The position numbers and the translations under genes are program-made. From positions 1 through 28,137 of IMG/VR virus record IMGVR_UViG_3300034407_003420: a stretch of 28,137 nucleotides of DNA, one strand, 5' to 3'. Shown here piece after piece: positions 1 through 28,137 of this stretch. The first letter of the stretch is position 1. Every line of letters starts with the position of its first letter. This stretch comes from a virus. The notes under the pieces are model-generated. The model made no database searches and was not told the DNA's origin. It saw only the letters and a list, made by a program, of their open reading frames with translations.

Positions 1-344
1 CCTCGTCCACCCCTTAAAGTGTAAACACCGTTGGGGAGCATCTCCGGGGCGGGAGGTGGAGGTGGAGGTGGAGGTGTAGGAGTTTCTGTAAATCCTGGTG
101 GTGTTGCTGTTGGTGTTGGTGTTACTAAGTTAACAACAATATTTGCTGAACTACCATTACAAGTACCTGCAGTTATTGTAGCTGTAATAGTTGCTCCAAC
201 GTTAGCTGTAACGCTAACTCCTGTTTGTAAAGCAGATACAGTAGTAGACCCAGGAGAAATAGTTCCTGTAGAAGCAGATAGGGTGACAGTTTCTGTCCCC
301 GCGTATGAGCCTCCAAATGTACCTTGTAATGTAAATGTAGCCAT
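1..344 (-). CDS. Thr-Pro-linked modular virion protein, N-terminal part (cut by window start)
   Basis: The frame opens at an ATG (342-344) preceded by an A-rich run, 14 bases after the stop of the upstream tail gene, and runs off the window without a stop. Residues 1-74 form a Ser/Thr/Gly/Ala-rich beta-type domain with a single Cys near residue 62. A Thr-Pro linker begins at residue 75 and contains the motif [10 protein letters not shown]. Down to base 72 the reading is identical and in phase with the other window end. Joined to 25871-28060 it makes a single 820-residue protein. Bases 1-71 instead continue as a Pro run followed by PAPEMLPNGVYTLRGGR, which is GC-rich and unlike the rest. I regard this tail as a variant or chimeric tip. 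The function is not known. The position after two tail proteins and before the tape measure in the circle suggests a tail-tip or surface appendage. Confidence 0.8.
   Translation of the reverse strand, partial: MATFTLQGTFGGSYAGTETVTLSASTGTISPGSTTVSALQTGVSVTANVGATITATITAGTCNGSSANIVVNLVTPTPTATPPGFTETPTPPPPPPPPAPEMLPNGVYTLRGGR
72..148. repeat. Left copy of 77-bp exact terminal repeat
   Basis: Bases 72-148 are identical to 28061-28137. The first 51 or so bases encode Thr-Pro linker, but the rest (CTAAGTTAACAACAATATTT and following) is ordinary unique coding sequence, so this is not merely two linkers resembling each other. The match ends exactly at the right edge of the window, and upstream of base 72 the two copies diverge. 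A 77-base overlap is what a de Bruijn assembly with k=77 leaves when a contig returns to its own path. Confidence 0.95.
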
Positions 345-358
345 TAGTTATTTTTTTT

Positions 359-2665
359 TTAGCTTATGTTCAATTCAAATTCACATCCTGTTTGATTGAA
401 AATGTTTAATTCAAAATCACAATTTGCAGGTGTTACTGTGGGTGTTGGTGTTGGTGCTGGTGTTGCAGTTGGTGTAGGTGTAATGTAAATACCTTCTCCA
501 TATACTGGTCTTTGTTTTAATAGCTCAACTTCAACAACATCATCTTGGGTTAAATTAAACCCACTAATTTTGTTTATCCTATATTGCTCGCCATGAATAA
601 ATATTCTATCGTTTAATCTTATGTTTTTGTATTCCGTCGGTGAAAATTCTAAGTCTAAAGTAACTTTTCTATTTTCATCCCAATACAATGTATTTATATA
701 ATTTTTCCAAAATGAATCAAATGCATCCTTACCTTGAATAGTAGGATCATAGTACATTGAAATTAAATTAAAATAATCATTGGAAAAATTTAAATCTATA
801 GTATTAGCACCTGGTGTTAATGATTGTAGATTTGATATAGTAGAATAAAATGCACTGTCTTCAAATCCATAATATATTTTACCTAAAGGAACATAGGAAG
901 GTACTTCAACATCAACTTTATAACCTAATCTAGGTTTAAATTGAAATGATGTTTGTGCTGTATTTTCAAATTTATATAAATGAGGTACTACTGCTGATCC
1001 TGTAGATAAATTAAATGTTGGGTTATTATCTGAATCTAATGATCCAGATTCAATCATTGGTCCTAATACAGTTGGTCCAAATACAGTTTCTATTTTTTTA
1101 CTTCCTACAGGTATATTAGAATCAGCAATAACTTCTTGAGTACCATATTGAAAGTTAGGTGCATTATCTTTAGCTATTTTACTAAACCTATCATTATCAT
1201 CTTTATCCTTAATTAATAATGTTTTAGGTTGTTCATTAACAGGATGTTTAATTGATATTCTTTGAGCAGTATCGTATCTTGATGTCCAATCAATGTTACG
1301 ACCTTGGTTCATCCATTCTTCAAAGTTTTCAATTATTAATTTTTTACTTTCAGTAGGATGGGGTACCATTACGGCATTAAACTTAGTTAATAATCCTTTT
1401 AGAATATCATAAGCCTTTAATTTACTATCCCATTGTAATGCCATATCAATTGGGGCATTTGCAAATGATTTAGGAGCTGAAACACATCTAAATGAATTGT
1501 TAAAATTAGTTATCTGAGCAGCATTAGGACCCGTACCATTCTCATCATATCTTCCAAATACTGCTATAGTCTCATTAGCATTAAGTGTTCCATTAAATGA
1601 TACATTTAGAGTAGTATAACTTGAACCAGGTGTTAATGCCACAGATGTATTTGCTAATGATTGAGAACCATTTTTATAAATTGATAAGGTGTATGTTTGA
1701 ACAGAAGCTGGTACAAATAGAGTAAATATCTGTATTTGAGCTGAAAATTCATATTCTCCTGCTACTTGTGTTGTATATTCGTATTGTGAAGGATTATAAG
1801 CACCACCATTATTAGATAATACTTGATCAAATTGTATTTTAACAGTTGTAGCCTCAGGTGATGGTTGGATAAATGATTGTATTGATGAAAATGTTGGTAT
1901 AGATGATCCTGATAATACAGGCCCTAAACCATCTTGTCCTTTAGGTAGAATAAATAAATCATCAAATATAGAACCTGAAATTAAACTAGATTCGTATTTG
2001 TATCCTGCATAATCAACAATTGTATCTACTACTGCTCTAGCACTTAATGCAGGTAAAAATTGTCTTTCCTTCATTGGTGTAGAAGGATTTGCAATACCAG
2101 GATCAAATAGATTTCGATTTAATTGTATTCTAGGTATAGAAGGATAATCATCAGGAGTATCTGTTCCAAAATCACATAATGGGTAAAATACATCCCCATT
2201 TAACAATTCACCTTGCCATGAAGCAGATATTGAAGAAGAATTTAATGTTGTATTATATGCTGACCAATCAATGTCATTCATATTTGTTCCTTCAACAGTG
2301 TTTTTAAAATTAACTGTATCATCAGCAACTGTTACATTATATCCTATGTAACCTAAACCATCAGTAACTGTTTCTTCTAATTGAAATTCTCCACCTAATA
2401 ATCTTTCACCATTATAAAGTACTTCAGCATCAATTGTATTATATAAACCAGGTATTTGATCAGCTCCTACTCTATAAGCACCCTTAAAAAATGCGTTATT
2501 ACGTCTAGTTCCCGGTAGATTAAACGTTTGAGAACCAACCCCATATATCTCGCCGATTGAAGTATTTTCAACGGCAGATACATCAAGTCTTAATGGTATG
2601 TTACTATCAATGTCAAGATCGTACCATTCATTATTGTAATAAACTCGTAATATAAGATCGCCCAT
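359..2665 (-). CDS. Large tail protein with C-terminal Thr-Pro linker and peptide tag
   Basis: A 768-aa protein, resembling by recall large tail proteins of Bacteroidota and marine phages located in the baseplate or tail-tip region. I cannot assign a precise role. The body (about 1-725) is a mixed globular sequence. The last 40 residues are a Thr-Pro linker (about 729-747) followed by a Cys-containing tail, in which CDFELNI and CEFELNI occur one after the other. The start overlaps the stop of the preceding tail gene by one base (TAATG), indicating translational coupling. The next gene starts 14 bases beyond its stop. The linker and tag look appended to an otherwise ordinary tail protein, in the same style as the 650-aa and 820-aa proteins. 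Confidence 0.85.
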   Translation of the reverse strand: MGDLILRVYYNNEWYDLDIDSNIPLRLDVSAVENTSIGEIYGVGSQTFNLPGTRRNNAFFKGAYRVGADQIPGLYNTIDAEVLYNGERLLGGEFQLEETVTDGLGYIGYNVTVADDTVNFKNTVEGTNMNDIDWSAYNTTLNSSSISASWQGELLNGDVFYPLCDFGTDTPDDYPSIPRIQLNRNLFDPGIANPSTPMKERQFLPALSARAVVDTIVDYAGYKYESSLISGSIFDDLFILPKGQDGLGPVLSGSSIPTFSSIQSFIQPSPEATTVKIQFDQVLSNNGGAYNPSQYEYTTQVAGEYEFSAQIQIFTLFVPASVQTYTLSIYKNGSQSLANTSVALTPGSSYTTLNVSFNGTLNANETIAVFGRYDENGTGPNAAQITNFNNSFRCVSAPKSFANAPIDMALQWDSKLKAYDILKGLLTKFNAVMVPHPTESKKLIIENFEEWMNQGRNIDWTSRYDTAQRISIKHPVNEQPKTLLIKDKDDNDRFSKIAKDNAPNFQYGTQEVIADSNIPVGSKKIETVFGPTVLGPMIESGSLDSDNNPTFNLSTGSAVVPHLYKFENTAQTSFQFKPRLGYKVDVEVPSYVPLGKIYYGFEDSAFYSTISNLQSLTPGANTIDLNFSNDYFNLISMYYDPTIQGKDAFDSFWKNYINTLYWDENRKVTLDLEFSPTEYKNIRLNDRIFIHGEQYRINKISGFNLTQDDVVEVELLKQRPVYGEGIYITPTPTATPAPTPTPTVTPANCDFELNIFNQTGCEFELNIS
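425..481 (-). repeat. Thr-Pro linker at the C-terminus of the 768-aa tail protein
   Basis: Encodes about 19 residues of [18 protein letters not shown] type. It is followed by a 21-residue Cys-containing end with a repeated C-[DE]-F-E-L-N-I motif. Confidence 0.85.
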
Positions 2666-4380: not shown

Positions 4381-6333
4381 TTATTCTGGGCCTACACAAA
4401 ATCTAGGTGAATCACTTACGTCTCTTGCTTCAACACTTACTCCATCACTTCCTATTTCTACTACTCCTTGATAAACCGTACCATCTTCATAAGCAAAATA
4501 AATAGTGCTAACATTATATGTTACCGGTAATACTAATTTTGTTGTTAATGATGGATCAACATAAAAGTCTTGAGTATTAATTACATCTGGATGTTCAACA
4601 AAACTTTGTGATACTGGATTATTTGTGTTAGCCTGAATATAGACTGTAGTATCATATGAAGCAGATGCAAATGGAAGTTGACTATTATAAAATTCACATG
4701 AACCACCATTTGCATAACTTTCTCCAGTAGCTAAAATCATTTCAAAAATTGATGCTGTTGGTGTAGCTGTTGGAGTAGGTGTTGGTGTACCTGTTGCTGT
4801 AGGTGTTGGAGTTGCAGGTGTAGCCGTTGGTGTAGCCGTTGGTGCAGTAGGAGTTGGAGTTGGTGTTTCCGTAAATCCAGGAGGCGTTACAGTTGGTGTT
4901 GGTGTAGGAGTACCTGTTGGAGTAGGTGTAGGTGTTGGTGTTACATCTTTATTACAAATCGTAATTGCAATAATTTCCTGTGGTCCACTTATTTGTCCAT
5001 TTGTTGTTTCAAATCTTACAGTACCAGAACCACTAGCATAAGTACTTGAACCTAAATAATCCCAATTAGTACCATGATCAACTCCCATAATAGAAGAAGA
5101 ATAAACATGATTTAATCCTGAATCACTATAAATTGTTTTATTTGCTAATATGTTACCTTCAGTTGATTCAAGTACATAAATTGGATCATCACCAATTGAA
5201 TAATCAGTTGATGTAGCTAAAATATAAACTGTTTTATTTGTTCCTCTATCAATAGTAAAATCACCACATGCTGGAGGTGATCCAGTCCAACCAGTTGAAC
5301 TTTCATTTATTGCAATTTCATAAATGTGATTAAATCCATCAAATGTAGCTGTTGGAGTAGGTGTTACGGCTGTTGCTGTTGGTGTAGCTGTTGGTACTGG
5401 TGTAGCAGTAGGTGTTGGTGTATTTTGTGCTAAACAATCTATACAATTATTATAAACAAAATCTATATCATTAGCAGATGAACCTGTTGATATACTCATA
5501 ATTTCCCAACAATCACCTAATATACCATTTATACTAACTGAACTACCAGTAGCTAATAAATCACCATAATTTCTTACAATATTTGTTTGTAATGGTGCAT
5601 TACACAATCTAACATCATAATAAGTTAATAATGCTGTTGGTGTAGGTGTTGCCGTAGGTGTTGCTGTAGGAGTACCTGTTGGTGTAGCCGTAGGTGTTGC
5701 CGTAGGAGTAGCCGTTGGTGTAGGAGTATTTGTAAATCCTGGAGGCGTAGCCGTAGGAGTTGGTGTTGCTGTTGGAGTAGCTGTTGGAGTTGGTGTAGGA
5801 GTTCCTGTAGCTGTTGGTGTAGGTGTTGCTGTTGGAGTAGCAGTTGGTGTTCCTGTAGGTGTAGGAGATGGTGTTATACGTGGATAATCACAGTAATTAT
5901 ACGTACCTACTGTTTGTATATTAATGTTTCCTACCCAACCATATGCTCTATCATTAAATGCCTCTAACGTTGGTATAATATTGGTAATTTCAATATCATA
6001 ACCTAATGATTGATTATCTGTAGGTGGTCCCCATGTAAACCAACTTCCTACATCATATATTAAAGTCTCCATTCTTGACATTACATCAATTGGAGATTCT
6101 GTAGATAATTTAGGTACATCTAAACAATATAGTTCAAATGATAATTGTCTTAATCTTGTTTCTTGATCATAACCAGGTGAAGACATAGGTCTTAAAAACA
6201 CATACGGGTATGCTATATTCTGAGATGATGCATCTAGATAATCTAAACTACCATGAGCGAAAGATGCTACATATAAATGTGCATCAGTTGCTTGTTCGAA
6301 TTGATTAACAATGCTTTTATAGGTTATGAACAT
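4381..6333 (-). CDS. Tail-terminator-like protein fused to Thr-Pro-linked Cys modules
   Basis: A 650-aa protein with a composite layout. Residues 1-150 resemble the small tail terminator proteins of Bacteroidota phages, including SFAHGS near residue 25 and a closing NYCDYP where such proteins usually end. A Thr-Pro linker follows (153-234), then a Cys module (236-302) ending NNCIDC, linker 304-330, a different module (335-463), linker 464-528 and a C-terminal module (529-650) with [11 protein letters not shown]. The first and last modules match module types in the 820-aa protein. No frame break separates the parts. The gene ends one base before the gp10-like gene. If the N-terminus is a tail terminator, the extension would project as whiskers from the neck. 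That placement is inference. Confidence 0.85.
4750..4944 (-). repeat. Thr-Pro linker 3 of the 650-aa protein
   Basis: About 65 residues of [16 protein letters not shown], containing [10 protein letters not shown], which also occurs in the 820-aa protein. At DNA level the two PPGFTETP segments are near-identical, so they could recombine. Confidence 0.88.
5344..5424 (-). repeat. Thr-Pro linker 2 of the 650-aa protein
   Basis: About 27 residues of [18 protein letters not shown] type between the NNCIDC-ending module and the following module. Confidence 0.85.
5632..5877 (-). repeat. Thr-Pro linker 1 of the 650-aa protein (longest)
   Basis: About 82 residues of [12 protein letters not shown] type with one PPGFTNTP interruption. 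The DNA is an irregular array of 6- and 12-base units. It joins the tail-terminator-like domain to the first Cys module. Confidence 0.9.
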
Positions 6334-9483: not shown

Positions 9484-11778
9484 TTAATTAAATGTTTTGA
9501 ATAACAATGATTTAGGTATATTCCAAGTCCAATTTGTATTGTCCTCCAATCCACCGCTTAATAACACGTAATTACCGTTATCTAACATTGATGTAATAAA
9601 GAACAACGCGTATGGTATTTTCTTAGAAATAAATGGTTTATATGCCACGTCTATAATGTTCAGATCCTTATCTAATTTTATAGCATAGTGATTATAACTC
9701 CTTTGCTCATACAATTTAGTATGAACCATATACATATATACGCCTTCATCCTCAAACCATATTGGAGCCGTTGATCCACCTACTTTACTAGCAGCAGTAA
9801 AATATAATTCATTTTGTGGGAACTTATTATTAAATGGATTTTCTACATCTATTATTTTCTCAAATTCCCAATCACCGATGTGTTTGTATACCTTATAGTT
9901 GGGGCTGGTATTATATATAAAGTGTAATTCATCATTGTGTACGAACGGTAATAGATTTTTATACCATTCTACCTCCTTACCGGCTATGAATTCCATTCTA
10001 TTAGGTTCGTCAAATCTCAATTGTTTAACTACCTTATACTCCTCATCTAGTATAGCCGTTGTTGTATTCCAATCTTTATCAATGAATGAAGCAAAATGAT
10101 AGGGTTTGTCTTTATATACTACTGTTCTAAAGTCTTCCCATTTACTTAATTCTTTATATTGTATTGGTTTTTCTTTATAGTCAACCATTACTAAATCATC
10201 TGTAAAATCAAATTCATATAGTGATCTACAATCACCTAATTGCTCCATGAATAATGTACGAGATGTATCTTTATCTAATCTAGATATGCCTTTATATCCA
10301 TCATTTGTTTTCCATAATGATAGATTGTGAGAACAAAAATTTACCCTATGTTGTTTTAGATTTTCTCTTGGTGTTTCATCTCGCCAACTACCTTCAAATA
10401 AATGACTAATGTATATCGAAGAATCTGTGTCTTTACCGTTCAATACATCATGTCTAATAGCACCACTATGGCTTTGGTTACTACCAACTCTGTTTATTGA
10501 TAATAATTGGTGACTATCAACTTGTATATCCGTAGTATAATCGTGGTGTGTGCCAAAATGAGCTGTAACGTGTTTTGTAAATCTACCCGGCCCTGTATTT
10601 TGTAGTACTCCACCTACTGGATTATTAATTATATCATCTATAATTTTATTTAGTGGTTCTTGTTTTGGAGCCGCTGCTATAAACCAATTTGCTACACTAA
10701 CCATTTTATCATTAGTGTTTACTCCTATATTTTTAAAGAATTTATTATCTTTATCTAAACATGCCTCTAATCCTGCTATAAATGTTTGACCTTCTAACCA
10801 ATTATCTATTGGTCTATGACAAAATGTATCAGCATCTACGTATACACCTCCATTTTCCCACAGATAACAATATCTAAAGAAATCAGTACGTTCGCCTTTA
10901 GATGCTAATGATTTATAAGCATCATAATATATGCTTGATTTAAACCATTTATGAACAGCATTGTCATCAAAATAAATTAAATCCCAATCAGGATTATGTT
11001 TTTCAAAACTATCAATCATGTATTGATTTACATCTAATACATCTTTAGTTGTGTAAATTATTTTACGTGGTATATGATTGAATATTGTTTTTGCTTGAAC
11101 GTAATCCCAGAATTTTTTATTGCCTATGACTTCCATCTCTTGTAGTTTACCTGGGTATTCTACGTGTAAAATATCTTTACCATCATATGTGTATTTTGTT
11201 CTAGCAAAGTCATGCTTCATTATTTTTAGATCTCCATGTTGACCTAATTCAAAATCTGCCTCTATATCATTGCCTAATACTTTATTTACAGATTTACCCA
11301 TTAATGCAGGACCAGTATAATCTAAATAAAACATTTCTTGTTTTGATTCACAATTTTTAACTATCCTATCAATTGCTTCTTTTAAGAATGGATGGTTAAT
11401 AGACGCAGCAATAAATGCATTACCCAACCATTTCATAGCCATTGGGTCATCCCTCGTGATGATAAAATTGTCTGTGGAATCAATCAGATCATCTAAGGGC
11501 GTCTCACATATTGTATCTGCGTCTATATAAACACCTCCTTGTACATAAAGTACACACAACCTGAACAAATCAGCTTTGAATGCTCCTGGAACTAACGCAT
11601 GATATGCTGTTATAACTTCAGGACCGAAATGTTCTTTTATAAATTTTACTCTATCATGTTTATCAAAAAATGTATACTCGTAATCTGGATTTTTAGTTTG
11701 CCATGATAGGCATGCTTTAGCCATACCATGAGGCAATTCATGAGTTTCAAATGTTTGATATATTTTCTTTGGTATCAT
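9484..11778 (-). CDS. Tandem GT32-like glycosyltransferase with C-terminal propeller-like domain
   Basis: A 764-aa multidomain enzyme. Residues 1-230 and 236-465 are two copies of a GT32-type (DXD sugar-binding, OCH1-like) glycosyltransferase. Each opens with IPxKIxxT and carries a catalytic DXD motif: YIDAD with D86/D88, and YVDAD with D315/D317, each preceded by a GGV. The C-terminal 480-764 looks like a glycosidase-type beta-propeller (IWFEDEGVYMYMVH, LDKDLNIID, LLSGGLEDNTNWTW). Such domains occur fused to glycosyltransferases. Its start overlaps the GT60-like gene by 4 bases (ATGA), so the two are coupled. Nucleotide-sugar donor and acceptor are unknown. Virion glycoproteins or host surface glycans are both possible. 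Confidence 0.88.
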   Translation of the reverse strand: MIPKKIYQTFETHELPHGMAKACLSWQTKNPDYEYTFFDKHDRVKFIKEHFGPEVITAYHALVPGAFKADLFRLCVLYVQGGVYIDADTICETPLDDLIDSTDNFIITRDDPMAMKWLGNAFIAASINHPFLKEAIDRIVKNCESKQEMFYLDYTGPALMGKSVNKVLGNDIEADFELGQHGDLKIMKHDFARTKYTYDGKDILHVEYPGKLQEMEVIGNKKFWDYVQAKTIFNHIPRKIIYTTKDVLDVNQYMIDSFEKHNPDWDLIYFDDNAVHKWFKSSIYYDAYKSLASKGERTDFFRYCYLWENGGVYVDADTFCHRPIDNWLEGQTFIAGLEACLDKDNKFFKNIGVNTNDKMVSVANWFIAAAPKQEPLNKIIDDIINNPVGGVLQNTGPGRFTKHVTAHFGTHHDYTTDIQVDSHQLLSINRVGSNQSHSGAIRHDVLNGKDTDSSIYISHLFEGSWRDETPRENLKQHRVNFCSHNLSLWKTNDGYKGISRLDKDTSRTLFMEQLGDCRSLYEFDFTDDLVMVDYKEKPIQYKELSKWEDFRTVVYKDKPYHFASFIDKDWNTTTAILDEEYKVVKQLRFDEPNRMEFIAGKEVEWYKNLLPFVHNDELHFIYNTSPNYKVYKHIGDWEFEKIIDVENPFNNKFPQNELYFTAASKVGGSTAPIWFEDEGVYMYMVHTKLYEQRSYNHYAIKLDKDLNIIDVAYKPFISKKIPYALFFITSMLDNGNYVLLSGGLEDNTNWTWNIPKSLLFKTFN

Positions 11779-13016
11779 AAATTAACTTCTATTCTCTCAG
11801 CCCATGTTTTACTTTCACTATAAGCCCATAAAATATACTTAAATGGTTTTTCAATATTAGCTTCTACCCATTTATCAAACCAATGTTCATTTTTTTCTTT
11901 AGCTCTACCTAATTGTAATTGAAAATCGGTATGATCTTTTCTATATAATACTTTACCATCTTTATCTTCTAATATTATAGCAAGAAAGGTATAATCATTT
12001 TCTTTAAATTCTGCTACGGGAACATTTATAACATGTTTGAATTTTAGATTAAATTTTTCATCCTTGTTTATTACTGGTGTTTCTCTATCTAATGTTGATT
12101 GTTTTACTGCTCTATCATTAAATCTAACACCGGCATAATGCTCATAATCTTCTAATGTTCGTTCAGTACCTAAACCATATTGTGCAAATAATTTTTTACG
12201 TTGACATGGAGCACATTCACCATCTACACCTAATAATTTTCTCATTCGCTCATGAGATGCCTTATTTGTCTCACCCCAATCTTTATGATTGTCCCAATGT
12301 TTGGTTCTACCTTTTCTAGTGTATTCGTGGTATGCGATAATTTTATTAGGATGAAATAAATCATAACCATGTGTGTATGCTCTAACTGCTATACTAATTT
12401 CTTCACCATGAAAATATAATTCAGGATCATGTTGTACTTCCTCAGCAAATTTACCTGTAGTAAATGCAAAGTGTGCTGAATAAAATCTAGCAGGCCATGG
12501 TTCATCTAAATTACCTTCCATATGATAAGGTAAAAAGAATATTACACCTTCAGGTGTAAATCTATCAAATTGCATTGCCCATGGTACTTTAACTCTACCT
12601 GCTGGATCATTATCTGGGTCAAATGAAGATATATAACTTGTTAGTAATGGTTTTTTATGACCTTTATTTTTTAGATCTTTGTACATTTTAATTACCTCAG
12701 CATCCCAATTATCTACAAATCTATGATGTGAATCTAATTGTAAAGTATATTCTTCACCATCATATAATTGTTGTATTTGGTTTCTAGCCCAACAAGCACC
12801 TTTAGAATCCTGATAGTCTATATCTATAACCTTTATTCTTTTATCATCTACATAACTAGCTAAACTATCCCATTCATCTTCATTTGAATGTTGGTGTGCA
12901 ATACCTACTATTAAATTTTCTGGATTTTTAGCTTTATCAAATAAATCCTCTAATGTTGGAATTAACTGAGGGTCTCTATAACTTGCAATTTGTACAAAAA
13001 TCTTATTTTTTTTCAT
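11775..13016 (-). CDS. GT60-like polypeptide GlcNAc-transferase (PF11397 type)
   Basis: A 413-aa protein. The family pattern is clear: N-terminal FVQIASYRDPQLIPTLEDL, then SKGACWARNQIQQLYDGE, then YTLQLDSHHRFVDNWD with the metal and sugar-binding DSH at 95-97. A GEEISIAVRAYTHGYDLFHP segment and a HEYTRKGR segment follow. PF11397/GT60 members in Dictyostelium and Trypanosoma transfer GlcNAc from UDP-GlcNAc to hydroxyproline or to Thr in mucin-like repeats. Phage relatives are known by recall but their acceptors are not. It overlaps both the 49-aa gene upstream and the GT32-like gene downstream by 4 bases, so it belongs to the sigma-to-glycosyltransferase operon. A Thr-Pro acceptor is my inference. 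Confidence 0.9.
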   Translation of the reverse strand: MKKNKIFVQIASYRDPQLIPTLEDLFDKAKNPENLIVGIAHQHSNEDEWDSLASYVDDKRIKVIDIDYQDSKGACWARNQIQQLYDGEEYTLQLDSHHRFVDNWDAEVIKMYKDLKNKGHKKPLLTSYISSFDPDNDPAGRVKVPWAMQFDRFTPEGVIFFLPYHMEGNLDEPWPARFYSAHFAFTTGKFAEEVQHDPELYFHGEEISIAVRAYTHGYDLFHPNKIIAYHEYTRKGRTKHWDNHKDWGETNKASHERMRKLLGVDGECAPCQRKKLFAQYGLGTERTLEDYEHYAGVRFNDRAVKQSTLDRETPVINKDEKFNLKFKHVINVPVAEFKENDYTFLAIILEDKDGKVLYRKDHTDFQLQLGRAKEKNEHWFDKWVEANIEKPFKYILWAYSESKTWAERIEVNL

Positions 13017-22569: not shown

Positions 22570-22746
22570 ATGAAAAAGTTTAAAACACAATTAGTAAGTA
22601 CAAAAGGAGATATTATTAAATCATTTATCTCAAGTTCAAGACCGTCAACACGATTTGGAAGTGAAGGTGTTGAGGTTAGAAGTAATGACCCTGAAAATGA
22701 TTTTACAATTATGGGTTCATTTAATGTTATTATTGAAACTGCCTAA
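22570..22746 (+). CDS. 58-aa protein heading the lipoprotein cassette, unknown function
   Basis: The protein starts MKKFKTQLVSTKGDIIKSFI and ends FTIMGSFNVIIETA. No membrane segment or signal was seen, and the predicted character is beta-rich. Its TAA overlaps the ATG of the first lipoprotein by one base (TAATG), which supports both genes and implies coupled translation. The start is preceded by an A-rich stretch typical of Bacteroidota initiation. Confidence 0.75.
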   Translation: MKKFKTQLVSTKGDIIKSFISSSRPSTRFGSEGVEVRSNDPENDFTIMGSFNVIIETA

Positions 22747-22937
22747 TGAAAAAATTAATATTATTAGCTTTGTTATTTGCATCATGTTCAAAAGACTCCA
22801 TCTGTGGAGAGGTCACAGGTGGAGGCGTAAATAGATTTACAGGTGAACTGTATTTAGAAGTTGATGGTCAACGTGAATGGGTAGATATGAAAACTTATGA
22901 ATCATTTTATATAGGAGATCCGATATGTTTAGATTAA
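22746..22937 (+). CDS. Small lipoprotein 1 (possible superinfection exclusion)
   Basis: A 63-aa protein. A basic-hydrophobic signal (MKKLILLALLFAS) ends at lipobox Cys14, giving a mature lipoprotein of 50 residues. After the Cys come S-K-D, which loosely resemble the charged lipoprotein export signals that send Bacteroidota lipoproteins to the cell surface. The mature part has ICGEV at the start, YLEVDGQREWVDMKTYE, and GDPIC near the end. It resembles its downstream neighbour in this pattern, so the two are paralogues. Phage-encoded lipoproteins often block receptors (T5 Llp is the classic case). That role here is inferred from class and context only. Confidence 0.82.
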   Translation: MKKLILLALLFASCSKDSICGEVTGGGVNRFTGELYLEVDGQREWVDMKTYESFYIGDPICLD

Positions 22938-23158
22938 TATTATTAGCCCTATTATTAGCCTCATGCACCAAAACAGAAGAAATATGTGGTGTAGTAGGTG
23001 AAAGAAAGTTATTTAACAGATGTGATATGGGTGGTGTTAAATGTGATTGTCACATCTGGATTGATGATGAAATGGTTTCAGTTGATTGTGATACAATGGA
23101 AAATGTATTTGTAGGAGATGTAGTGTGTGTAGAAGGAAATTATGATTCTTTCTATTAA
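22925..23158 (+). CDS. Small lipoprotein 2, paralogue of lipoprotein 1
   Basis: A 77-aa protein. Signal MFRLILLALLLAS with lipobox Cys14 at the same position as in its neighbour, then T-K-T-E-E. The mature part keeps ICGVV, an IWIDDE core, a VDCDTMEN segment and VGDVVCVEG, but adds extra cysteines (RCDMGGVKCDCHIW), perhaps disulphides or a metal site. It overlaps the first lipoprotein gene by 13 bases. Its end overlaps the convergent 47-aa gene by 4 bases. Tandem duplication with divergence suggests pressure to vary surface-exposed sequence. Confidence 0.82.
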   Translation: MFRLILLALLLASCTKTEEICGVVGERKLFNRCDMGGVKCDCHIWIDDEMVSVDCDTMENVFVGDVVCVEGNYDSFY

Positions 23159-25870: not shown

Positions 25871-28137
25871 TTATGGGCATAACGTTTCATTTATTCCTAC
25901 TGTTCCTAAATTATCTGTTGATGTCCAATAGTAATCATTTGATCCATCATTGTAAGAATAGAATCCACTTCCTATAAAGTTAGTGTATGTAGCACCGGCA
26001 GCGTACACTCTATCATTTGCCTCTATAAAAGCACCTGTATTACCATTACGTTTCAATAATCTAAATGGTCTTAATTGAGTATATCCACAAGCTGTACTGT
26101 TATTTACAGCACCTCCATCATTTGGATCCCAACTTGAATCAATTACTTTAGCATTGAAATCATAGAATGTACCACAAACTCCACTACCTTGTACTGCAAC
26201 ATCTCCTGCTCCGTATTCAACAAAGAATAATGGTACATCAGTTTGTACATCACTTATTCCCCAGTATCTATTAGCACCAGCTCCATTACTTAACTTAGTA
26301 GTTAAAGCAGAATCTGTATACAATTCAGCACCAACTTGTACTGCTGCATTTACTGTAGGTTGTATTGAGTAAATTGCTGTATTAGCATTTCCAGCACATG
26401 CACCTCCACTAGTTGTATAAGGCGTTGGACCATTATAGTAATAAGTGTACACTGTTTGTGTTGGTGTAGGTGTAGGTGTTGCTGTTGGTGTTGGGGTAGC
26501 CGTTGGTGTAGGTGTTGGGGTGAAACTTGTTGATTCACAGGTTGCACAATCAGCATATGGTCCAGCTAATACACTATTTGTAACAGCATCATTATAAGTA
26601 ATTGTATTAATAATACCAACACATTCTTCTACAAATCCTCCACCTGATGCTATACTAGCATATACTACACTACCACTTGTAAATGATTCTGAACTGTTAA
26701 AGTATCTAGTACCACCACTACTACATTCAGCACCTTCATAAGTGAATATTGTAGCTGTTGCTGTTGGTGTGGGTGTTGGAGTAGCTGTAGGCGTTGGTGT
26801 AGGTGTAAAGTTAGTACCTGCACAATCAGCACAATCTATATAAATTGATCCAGTATATAAATCAACTGCTGGATTGTATGATAATACAGATTCCATATAA
26901 CCACAAACTCCATCTGGGTTTTGTGCATCATAGAAACCTGGTCTAAATACAGATTCAGATACATTTATTGTTCCTACATAATTATAGAAGAAATTCTTAC
27001 TACCAACTTCATCACAAACTTGGAATTGATAAGTGTTAATTGTAGGTGTAGCTGTAGGTGTAGGTGTTGGAGTTGCTGTTACTACACTTGGACACCATTC
27101 TACTTCTATTACATTACCATTATCATTAGTGATAACGTATCCTTTATTTACTGCAGGATCTCCTAAATAATCACCAAATGATCCAGAACCTAATCTTTGT
27201 GCTCCGGCACCAAATGTTAATAAATCTCCTACTTCAGGATAACTTTCAGTTCCACCAGAGTATTTGAGAATATCAACTTGTAGTAAGTTATTATCACTTA
27301 CAAAATCAGCACAAGCAGTGGTAGAATCAACATATCCATTAGGTTGAGTTGAACTCCATGCATCAGGAATATAAATTTCTTCATTTGGTGATGTACTAAC
27401 ACAACTACCTTCATATGATCCTGTTGAATCAGTACCATTAGGGTATAATAATGTTATTAATGGAGAAGTACCACTTACATCACTTAAACCAAGATATGAT
27501 CCTGAAGTAATAGTATAAGGTGTAGTTAATCTAGCATCAGTGTATAATGTTGTTTTTTCAGCATTGGCTGGAATTTCAAAATCATTCCAACTATTTAATC
27601 CCTCAACCCAAACTTCATTACTTGCTGAAATACCACAAGCTGAACCAGTATCACTTTGTTCTGTTGTTACATAATAGTTGTAAGAATTAGGTATACAACT
27701 ACCCCAACTATTAGTAGTACCATATCCAGTAACATATCTTACATTATCATCTGGTAATACACCTAATGCTGTTGAAATACCATAGTATAATCCTTGACCA
27801 TCAAAATCATAAGAACCAGTATTTCCTGGTACAAATGCTTCTGGTGAAGTATACCATAACATTCCAGTGCCAATAGTTTGTTCTGAATAAATTGCTAATG
27901 ATGTTGTTATTGAACAAACATTATCATCAAAATTCTGACCCGGTTGTGTTAAATAAAAAGTATTTACTCCAGGTGCTGGTGTAATTGTAGGTGTTGGTGT
28001 TGGTCCTATAGGTGTAGGAGTAGGTGTTGCTGCAGTTGGAGTTGGTGTTGCAGTAGGTGTAGGTGTAGGAGTTTCTGTAAATCCTGGTGGTGTTGCTGTT
28101 GGTGTTGGTGTTACTAAGTTAACAACAATATTTGCTG
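25871..28137 (-). CDS. Thr-Pro-linked modular virion protein, main part (continues across the circle junction to 344)
   Basis: The frame is open to the right window edge (first full codon at 28135) and begins [18 protein letters not shown], matching the left-end gene in phase. An internal Met at 27862 is not needed as a start. With the 91 residues from 344-72 the whole protein is 820 aa. Counting from the Met at 27862: linkers at about 263-275, 352-372 and 448-471. Two related Cys modules lie at about 276-350 and 373-446, both ending in a D-C-A-x-C motif. Two copies of a larger module lie at about 75-257 and 487-663, sharing LYTDxxLTT, an STAC motif and a terminal CP. It probably acts as an extended surface fibre or adhesin. 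No catalytic motif was seen. The high Thr-Pro content makes it a candidate for O-glycosylation. Confidence 0.85.
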   Translation of the reverse strand, partial: ANIVVNLVTPTPTATPPGFTETPTPTPTATPTPTAATPTPTPIGPTPTPTITPAPGVNTFYLTQPGQNFDDNVCSITTSLAIYSEQTIGTGMLWYTSPEAFVPGNTGSYDFDGQGLYYGISTALGVLPDDNVRYVTGYGTTNSWGSCIPNSYNYYVTTEQSDTGSACGISASNEVWVEGLNSWNDFEIPANAEKTTLYTDARLTTPYTITSGSYLGLSDVSGTSPLITLLYPNGTDSTGSYEGSCVSTSPNEEIYIPDAWSSTQPNGYVDSTTACADFVSDNNLLQVDILKYSGGTESYPEVGDLLTFGAGAQRLGSGSFGDYLGDPAVNKGYVITNDNGNVIEVEWCPSVVTATPTPTPTATPTINTYQFQVCDEVGSKNFFYNYVGTINVSESVFRPGFYDAQNPDGVCGYMESVLSYNPAVDLYTGSIYIDCADCAGTNFTPTPTPTATPTPTPTATATIFTYEGAECSSGGTRYFNSSESFTSGSVVYASIASGGGFVEECVGIINTITYNDAVTNSVLAGPYADCATCESTSFTPTPTPTATPTPTATPTPTPTQTVYTYYYNGPTPYTTSGGACAGNANTAIYSIQPTVNAAVQVGAELYTDSALTTKLSNGAGANRYWGISDVQTDVPLFFVEYGAGDVAVQGSGVCGTFYDFNAKVIDSSWDPNDGGAVNNSTACGYTQLRPFRLLKRNGNTGAFIEANDRVYAAGATYTNFIGSGFYSYNDGSNDYYWTSTDNLGTVGINETLCP
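26450..26521 (-). repeat. Thr-Pro linker before the C-terminal module
   Basis: Encodes about 24 residues of TPTPTATP type, between the second small Cys module and the C-terminal LYTDxxLTT module. Confidence 0.85.
26747..26809 (-). repeat. Thr-Pro linker between the two small Cys modules
   Basis: Encodes about 21 residues of [10 protein letters not shown] type. It separates two related modules, each opening with a T-Y motif and closing with D-C-A-x-C. Confidence 0.85.
27038..27076 (-). repeat. Short Thr-Pro linker between modules of the 820-aa protein
   Basis: Encodes [13 protein letters not shown], joining the first large module to the first small Cys module. It is the shortest of the linkers in this protein. 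Confidence 0.8.
27968..28111 (-). repeat. Thr-Pro linker DNA repeat, N-terminal linker of the 820-aa protein
   Basis: Short irregular tandem units of ACACCA/ACTCCT/GCAACA type on the minus strand encode TPTPTATP-like peptide, interrupted by PPGFTETP and by PIGP. The reading frame is kept while synonymous codons vary, so protein sequence is under constraint and not just the DNA repeat. Confidence 0.85.
28061..28137. repeat. Right copy of 77-bp exact terminal repeat
   Basis: Identical to 72-148 and in the same reading frame of the Thr-Pro-linked gene. Merging the copies gives a circle of 27,989 bp. Confidence 0.95.

Follow-up and report, generated by a model that had tools for sequence, protein, structure and literature searches.

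What is the function of a GT60-type glycosyltransferase in a phage whose own tail-module proteins carry long threonine-proline (Thr-Pro) linkers? The question is raised by the IMG/VR virus record IMGVR_UViG_3300034407_003420, positions 1–28,137 of which form the window analyzed here, i.e. the whole stretch of 28,137 nucleotides (nt). A first-pass annotation of the window had proposed that the GT60-like enzyme starts O-glycans on the linkers and that a second, coupled enzyme extends them to give mucin-like bristles. This model of mucin-type glycosylation is supported by the sequence comparisons described here. The GT60 enzyme is predicted to start O-glycans on threonines of the virion linkers, and the coupled 764 amino acid (aa) enzyme, or the enzymes of a glycosyltransferase island in related phages, to extend them. 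The probability of this reading is put at roughly 0.7.

The GT60 enzyme and its coupled partner

The two enzymes are encoded by adjoining genes with the following features.

11775–13016, minus strand: GT60 (PF11397) glycosyltransferase, 413 aa (PF11397 profile match, AlphaFold2 model, fold neighbours among solved structures)
12717–12734, minus strand: DSHHRF motif of the GT60 enzyme, a DxH metal-site motif at residues 95–100, with D95 and H97 invariant
12327–12329, minus strand: H230 of the GT60 enzyme, invariant in the homologue alignment
9484–11778, minus strand: 764 aa enzyme with two GT32-like domains and a GH130-like beta-propeller (Pfam domains, Foldseek)

The 413 aa open reading frame (ORF) is confirmed by profile comparison as a full-length PF11397 (GT60) enzyme, as had been claimed for it. 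PF11397 matches its catalytic part with an E-value of 1.5e-79 (268 bits against a cut-off of 21), the GT60 family membership being that of the Pfam model only, and phrog_24687, termed "glycosyltransferase", matches it end to end. The AlphaFold2 model (predicted local distance difference test, pLDDT, 94.4; predicted TM-score 0.90) displays a GT-A domain at about residues 1–305 that is followed by a small C-terminal beta-sandwich at about residues 320–413, as assigned by DSSP. Polypeptide N-acetylgalactosamine (GalNAc) transferases make up 38 of the 39 best PDB fold matches, at an identity of only about 10–16%, and the bacterial GT-A enzymes TarS, GlfT2, SpsA, KfiA and RmlT mostly rank below them. 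A PDB search by sequence gave no homologue; the best match, with an E-value of 0.7, was an unrelated ABC transporter. Residues D95, H97 and H230 are invariant among 59 viral and cellular homologues, and they fit the pattern of a D-x-H with a distant histidine, which is the known metal site of GalNAc-transferases. The sequence displays no signal peptide or membrane segment (maximal 19-mer hydropathy 0.6). The enzyme is best explained as a soluble polypeptide O-glycosyltransferase, this being a predicted activity.

The enzyme resembles the GT27 polypeptide GalNAc-transferases, which are closest to it in fold, in the conserved D-x-H and distal histidine and in having Thr/Pro-rich candidate acceptors. 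Unlike these it has the small beta-sandwich at its C-terminal end and no ricin-type beta-trefoil lectin domain, and it is not a GT27 member. With the GT60 polypeptide alpha-N-acetylglucosamine (GlcNAc) transferases, i.e. TcOGNT1 and the Gnt1 enzymes of Toxoplasma and Dictyostelium, it shares the PF11397 family and a GT-A catalytic domain. According to PMC9472816 and PMC6939170, TcOGNT1 of T. cruzi adds O-GlcNAc to mucin threonines and Gnt1 adds GlcNAc to a hydroxyproline of Skp1. The phage enzyme differs from both in acting in a bacterium, in its extra beta-sandwich and in its likely targets, the Thr-Pro linkers of the virion. By family analogy the first sugar on linker threonines would be GlcNAc.

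The first-pass annotation had named threonine or hydroxyproline as acceptors of the family. Threonine is favored here. Hydroxyproline is an unlikely acceptor because, unlike in the Skp1 system, no prolyl-hydroxylase-like gene (PF13640) was found as a partner in 27 GT60 phage records, although a hydroxylase of the host or of another family might take its place.

The gene for the 764 aa enzyme overlaps the stop codon of the GT60 gene by 4 nt (ATGA). PF04488 is at residues 18–102 and PF05704 at residues 252–385; both are GT32-like and both contain an invariant D-x-D. Foldseek matches of these domains are Och1, YeGT and SetA, and those of the C-terminal propeller (about residues 475–764) are GH130 mannoside phosphorylases; the model itself is moderate (pLDDT 75). 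The coupled GT32-GT32-propeller enzyme described in the first-pass annotation is thereby borne out. Although the domain folds are those of GT32 enzymes and GH130 phosphorylases, the enzyme differs from these in joining two GT32-like domains to a GH130-like propeller within a single phage polypeptide, and its homologues (47–86% identity) were found only adjoining GT60 genes. No membrane segments were detected in it. A GT32 control scan yielded one relative only.

Thr-Pro linkers and their association with GT60

A Thr-Pro run is taken to be any stretch of 10 residues that contains eight or more threonines plus prolines, with three or more of each, within an open frame of at least 100 codons. Three tail-module proteins of the window carry eight Thr-Pro linkers, which have lengths of 11, 15, 19, 22, 27, 48, 65 and 81 aa and contain 130 threonines in total. 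The earlier count of at least eight linkers of 13–82 residues was essentially right. There are nine runs in the window proteins, whereas shuffled versions of each protein contain 0.3 on average and never more than 3. The linkers are not a single-codon DNA repeat because several codons are used for each residue (ACA, ACT and ACG for threonine, CCA and CCT for proline). The linker proteins are the following.

4381–6333, minus strand: 650 aa tail/neck-region protein with three Thr-Pro linkers at 5632–5874, 5389–5421 and 4753–4947 (run scan, phrog_15511)
25871–28135, minus strand: 754 aa tail-module protein with an open end, encoded immediately upstream of the tape measure (run scan; relative G002 continuous over the join of the contig ends)
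27971–28114, 27038–27082, 26750–26815 and 26450–26530, minus strand: Thr-Pro linkers of the 754 aa protein (run scan)
3–344, minus strand: N-terminal part of the 754 aa protein, across the contig ends (66–148 corresponds to 28055–28137 at 98.8%)
359–2665, minus strand: 768 aa tail-module protein with a C1q-like stretch and one Thr-Pro linker at 425–481 (run scan)

PF11397-type enzymes are present in at least 591 viral contigs, and 84 IMG/VR loci of up to 21 kb were compared. Thr-Pro runs are found within 10 kb of GT60 in 61 of these 84 loci, with 8.4 run residues per kb. In random viral loci, chosen with a 15-base pattern, they are found in 2 of 73 with 0.037 residues per kb, and the runs are thus about 200 times denser around GT60 (Fisher p = 1e-21, relatedness ignored). 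GT25, a phage glycosyltransferase family unrelated to GT60, served as a further control with the same collection and flank, and only 1 of its 80 loci shows a run (p = 3e-24, relatedness ignored). When the 84 loci are clustered at 70% identity, 21 viral clusters remain; 14 have Thr-Pro runs and nine have a Thr-Pro gene within 300 nt. The co-occurrence called for by the first-pass annotation is therefore present, and it extends to cultured phages.

In the phage collection only three isolates have a GT60 homologue: XacN1, a Xanthomonas phage, and CM1 and RAS14, which are Stenotrophomonas phages. ORF334 of XacN1 is 46% identical to the GT60 enzyme of the window. The jumbo phages XacN1 and RAS14 have 85 and 36 TPTPT-coding sites, respectively, whereas 11 related jumbo phages without PF11397 have 0–4 such sites, the level of a reversed-pattern control. 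At least 14 Thr-Pro ORFs are scattered over the XacN1 genome.

The converse association is partial. PF11397 is present in 12 of 50 viral records chosen by a Thr-Pro DNA pattern and in 0 of 38 random records (p = 9e-4). Two general rules were considered and rejected. A rule that any Thr-Pro phage has a glycosyltransferase island fails, as no glycosyltransferase is found, among the 25 families listed for 106 neighbour proteins, near Thr-Pro loci that lack PF11397; a rule that any phage glycosyltransferase island has Thr-Pro linkers fails on the GT25 loci. The presence of GT60 strongly predicts Thr-Pro linkers, but linkers do not predict GT60, because many phages have linkers without PF11397 or nearby glycosyltransferases.

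Gene order couples the enzyme to the linker proteins in related phages. A Thr-Pro gene is located within 600 nt upstream of GT60 and on the same strand in 46 of the 84 loci, with a gap of typically 15–100 nt. When the linkers are masked, the upstream Thr-Pro proteins fall into eight groups without detectable mutual similarity; the linker is their common feature. phrog_15511 matches 11 of 18 sampled Thr-Pro neighbours and two window proteins, and PHROGs called virion structural protein match 4 of the 18. Within one protein family, compared between L091 and L097, L101 and L109, the linker of the same protein consists purely of TPTPTP or of Pro/Val/Thr, or another insert takes its place. A glycosyltransferase is here genetically tied to genes of virion proteins, as expected of a phage virion glycosylation system.

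Among 110 proteins encoded downstream of GT60 in 33 loci, HtrL_YibB, GT32, GT34, GT10, GT25, GT2, GT7C and GT11 are the most frequent families, together with a PLOD-type glycosyltransferase domain, a carbamoyltransferase and methyltransferases of the FkbM and CmcI types. This gene set reads as glycan-extending and capping machinery. A protein of about 560 aa at L112:12250–13920, which with its relatives is often present in the GT60 islands, matches HtrL_YibB and appears from its sequence to have a second, GT2-like part. Islands with this protein were considered as a matched control and rejected as part of the same module, because 69 of the 80 loci found with it also hold GT60. Thr-Pro runs are present in 65 of the 69 loci with GT60 and in 4 of the 11 without it, a comparison of little weight as many of the 11 end at a contig edge. 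The context suggests that HtrL_YibB domains may be glycosyltransferases acting in protein glycosylation.

Two further observations concern these loci. L113, L142 and L164 have tail proteins with GTSGTSGSSG-type repeats beside, or in place of, nearby Thr-Pro linkers, and such repeats are possible alternative acceptors. L166 (NHBP01000112.1), which is labelled as a Planctomycetaceae metagenome-assembled genome (MAG), has GT60 and a 762 aa enzyme as a pair between Thr-Pro ORFs and is phage-like; it is probably a misbinned phage contig.

The gene order also bears on the possibility that the enzymes modify a surface glycan of the host (O-antigen, capsule or outer-membrane glycan) and thereby mask receptors or exclude superinfecting phages, as in serotype conversion. 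Enzymes of the GT32, GT25, GT10 and Caps_synth types commonly belong to surface polysaccharide pathways, and serotype conversion by phages is a familiar phenomenon. However both window enzymes are without membrane segments, GT60 is coupled to virion genes, the GT25 loci show no Thr-Pro association, and the nearest folds of GT60 are polypeptide-acting enzymes. Serotype conversion by a gtr cluster is disfavored, as no GtrA flippase (PF04138) was found in the 27 GT60 phage records. The first-pass annotation had allowed that the enzymes might act on host polysaccharide only; the soluble enzymes, the missing flippase and the Thr-Pro genes directly upstream weaken that case, and modification of a host glycan is improbable.

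It is still less probable that GT60 and the Thr-Pro tail genes are merely swapped together in a hypervariable tail-fibre cassette of aquatic phages, with no functional tie. Both genes do lie in the tail/accessory region, and many of the loci are related contigs. Such a cassette does not account for at least eight unrelated upstream Thr-Pro groups, for an association that holds in unrelated jumbo phages with Thr-Pro genes scattered genome-wide and in bacterial injection-system and secreted-protein loci, or for its lack in the GT25 loci.

The window genome, the proposed function and points against it

The 28,137-base record has recognizable genes for terminase, portal, a sigma-like factor, neck and tape measure. 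The contig ends overlap (66–148 with 28055–28137, 83 bp, 98.8% match). The relative G002 runs unbroken across the join, through the 768 aa protein, the Thr-Pro protein and the tape measure, and the relative G001 covers the rest of the genome. Because the ends overlap and relatives run unbroken over the join, the ORFs at 3–344 and 25871–28135 are read as one protein, and circular closure of the genome at about 28 kb is probable. No replication genes are recognizable in the window among the families searched, despite a complete set of virion genes, and G001 and G002 agree in this. Two small lipoprotein-like ORFs at 22746–23158 on the plus strand have the signal sequences LLALLFASCSKD and LLALLLASCTK, which suggest a Bacteroidota host.

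The apparent closure of the genome is relevant to the least probable of the alternatives, a very remote one, in which the enzymes glycosylate phage DNA to give hypermodified bases. Hypermodification of DNA by phage glycosyltransferases is established (Pyle 2024, as cited in PMC12619734). The window however has no thymidylate-synthase/hydroxymethylase-type gene, and the GT60 fold is like that of polypeptide glycosyltransferases. PF00303 is absent from the window and from 24 other GT60 phage records, in a search whose control was positive in nine genomes, and DNA modification is disfavored.

The favored reading, glycosylation of the linkers, would proceed as follows. GT60 would act in the infected cell's cytosol, in which the virion proteins are synthesized, and would place the first sugar on linker threonines of tail proteins and other virion proteins. 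The 764 aa GT32-GT32-GH130-like enzyme would extend this sugar; in related phages its place would be taken by GT2, GT10, GT11, GT25, GT34, HtrL_YibB, methyltransferases and carbamoyltransferases. The glycosylated proteins would then assemble into the particle. With threonine at nearly every second residue and proline between, the linkers would become extended, stiff, protease-resistant and glycan-coated spacers between tail or fibre domains. The phage might benefit through protease resistance, stiffness, solubility or masking. The family, the fold, the conserved metal-site motif, the conserved gene neighbourhood and the specific co-occurrence with Thr-Pro linkers are observed; the activity, the acceptor sites, the sugar, the order of action and the benefit are the parts of this reading that we infer. 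It is probable that phages with GT60 and linkers have sugar bristles on parts of their particles.

Several points weigh against linker glycosylation. The 84 GT60 loci are those most closely related to the query, and they are partly redundant. No Thr-Pro run is within 10 kb of GT60 in 23 of them, six of which carry runs elsewhere in the record. The Thr-Pro genes of the window itself do not adjoin GT60 but are located elsewhere in the tail module. Thr-Pro linkers also exist without a GT60 system: 38 of the 50 Thr-Pro records have no PF11397 match, and among 106 neighbour proteins of Thr-Pro loci lacking PF11397 no glycosyltransferase is found in the 25 families listed. PF11397 enzymes are present in many bacteria without a Thr-Pro neighbour. 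On the side of linker glycosylation, comparison of the 650 aa protein with its relative in L004 shows linker threonines conserved at 67 of 72 positions, compared with 31 of 66 elsewhere, and 37 synonymous to 24 amino acid changes in the linkers against 40 to 166 elsewhere; alignment of low-complexity sequence easily inflates the conservation counts, which are supporting evidence only.

The strongest rival draws on some of the points against. GT60 may glycosylate virion proteins at other serines or threonines of tail domains, and the Thr-Pro linkers would be mere flexible spacers. Besides the Thr-Pro records that lack PF11397 and have hardly any glycosyltransferase nearby, there are GT60 neighbours with other repeats (GTSG in L113, L142 and L164, Pro-Val-Thr linkers in L097 and L101) and bacterial GT60 genes that adjoin fimbrial adhesins without long Thr-Pro arrays. 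Glycosylation at other sites leaves unexplained the roughly 200-fold Thr-Pro density around GT60 relative to random phage DNA, and also why the GT60-free jumbo relatives, which have tail proteins, are without linkers. It is considered unlikely, albeit the least so of the alternatives to linker glycosylation.

Phage virion glycosylation as such is known. Mycobacteriophages (Che8 and relatives) glycosylate their own virion proteins by phage-encoded enzymes (Freeman 2023, as cited in PMC12619734 and PMC11256854), and according to PMC12619734 the glycans are located on capsid and tail-tube subunits, at their C-terminal ends. In XacN1 virion glycosylation had been suspected. The system in the window is similar in that phage-encoded glycosyltransferases would act on the phage's own virion proteins, as predicted here from sequence. 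It differs in its candidate acceptors, which are Thr-Pro linkers in tail-module proteins, and in its initiator, GT60. The window shares with XacN1 both the GT60 homologue and Thr-Pro linker proteins; at least two glycoproteins are reported from XacN1 proteomics, and in the relevant portion of that paper ORF334 is not tied to Thr-Pro linkers or mucin-type glycosylation (PMC5852040). The earlier statement that no described phage system of this kind was known therefore needs qualification with respect to virion glycosylation. It stands for the GT60/Thr-Pro mucin-type module, which appears to be undescribed, no description having been found in the open-licence literature, where a search for PF11397 led only to one paper on an unrelated subject.

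Bacterial GT60 loci and wider meaning

Two Sphingomonas MAGs (L198:6382–9990 and L202:6381–9998) have a protein of about 1200 aa with a Thr-Pro stretch directly upstream of GT60. In its sequence the protein looks like a baseplate component of a contractile injection system. In the Azospirillum locus L203 a 202 aa protein, read from its sequence as Pvc16-like, directly follows GT60; a neighbour scan that included L203 gave a Pvc16_N and gp25 match, the locus not being named. Acidobacteria-type genomes (L196:8469–10010 and L231:4596–6539) display a secreted Thr-Pro linker protein, with a signal like that of twin-arginine translocation, directly upstream of GT60.

GT60 is directly downstream of fimbrial-adhesin-like genes in L176, L179, L180, L183 and L193, which are from Burkholderia, Paraburkholderia and Trinickia. 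MrkD-like receptor-binding domains are found in the neighbour scan, which suggests that GT60 may glycosylate adhesins in these Burkholderiaceae. The bacterial neighbourhoods suggest a broader role of GT60 in dedicated protein O-glycosylation. A tentative generalization, with somewhat less than even odds, is that PF11397/GT60 enzymes represent a widespread counterpart, in prokaryotes, of mucin-type O-glycosylation for surface and injection machines. In phages, in phage-tail-like injection systems of bacteria and with secreted Thr-Pro proteins, GT60 would be placed directly behind its target gene, and further glycosyltransferases would build a shielding or stiffening glycan brush on the Thr-Pro linkers.

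Few cases of virion glycosylation are known among phages. The gene pair described here is recognizable and predicts the phages that carry glycans, the proteins that bear them and the residues concerned, and the prediction of linker glycosylation is testable on the isolated phage XacN1. If true, mucin-like glycoproteins would be present on viruses of bacteria and perhaps also on the injection machines of bacteria themselves. This would be relevant to the stability of phages, to their adsorption and immune recognition and to phage therapy, and it would provide a supply of soluble bacterial enzymes for the making of mucin-type glycopeptides.

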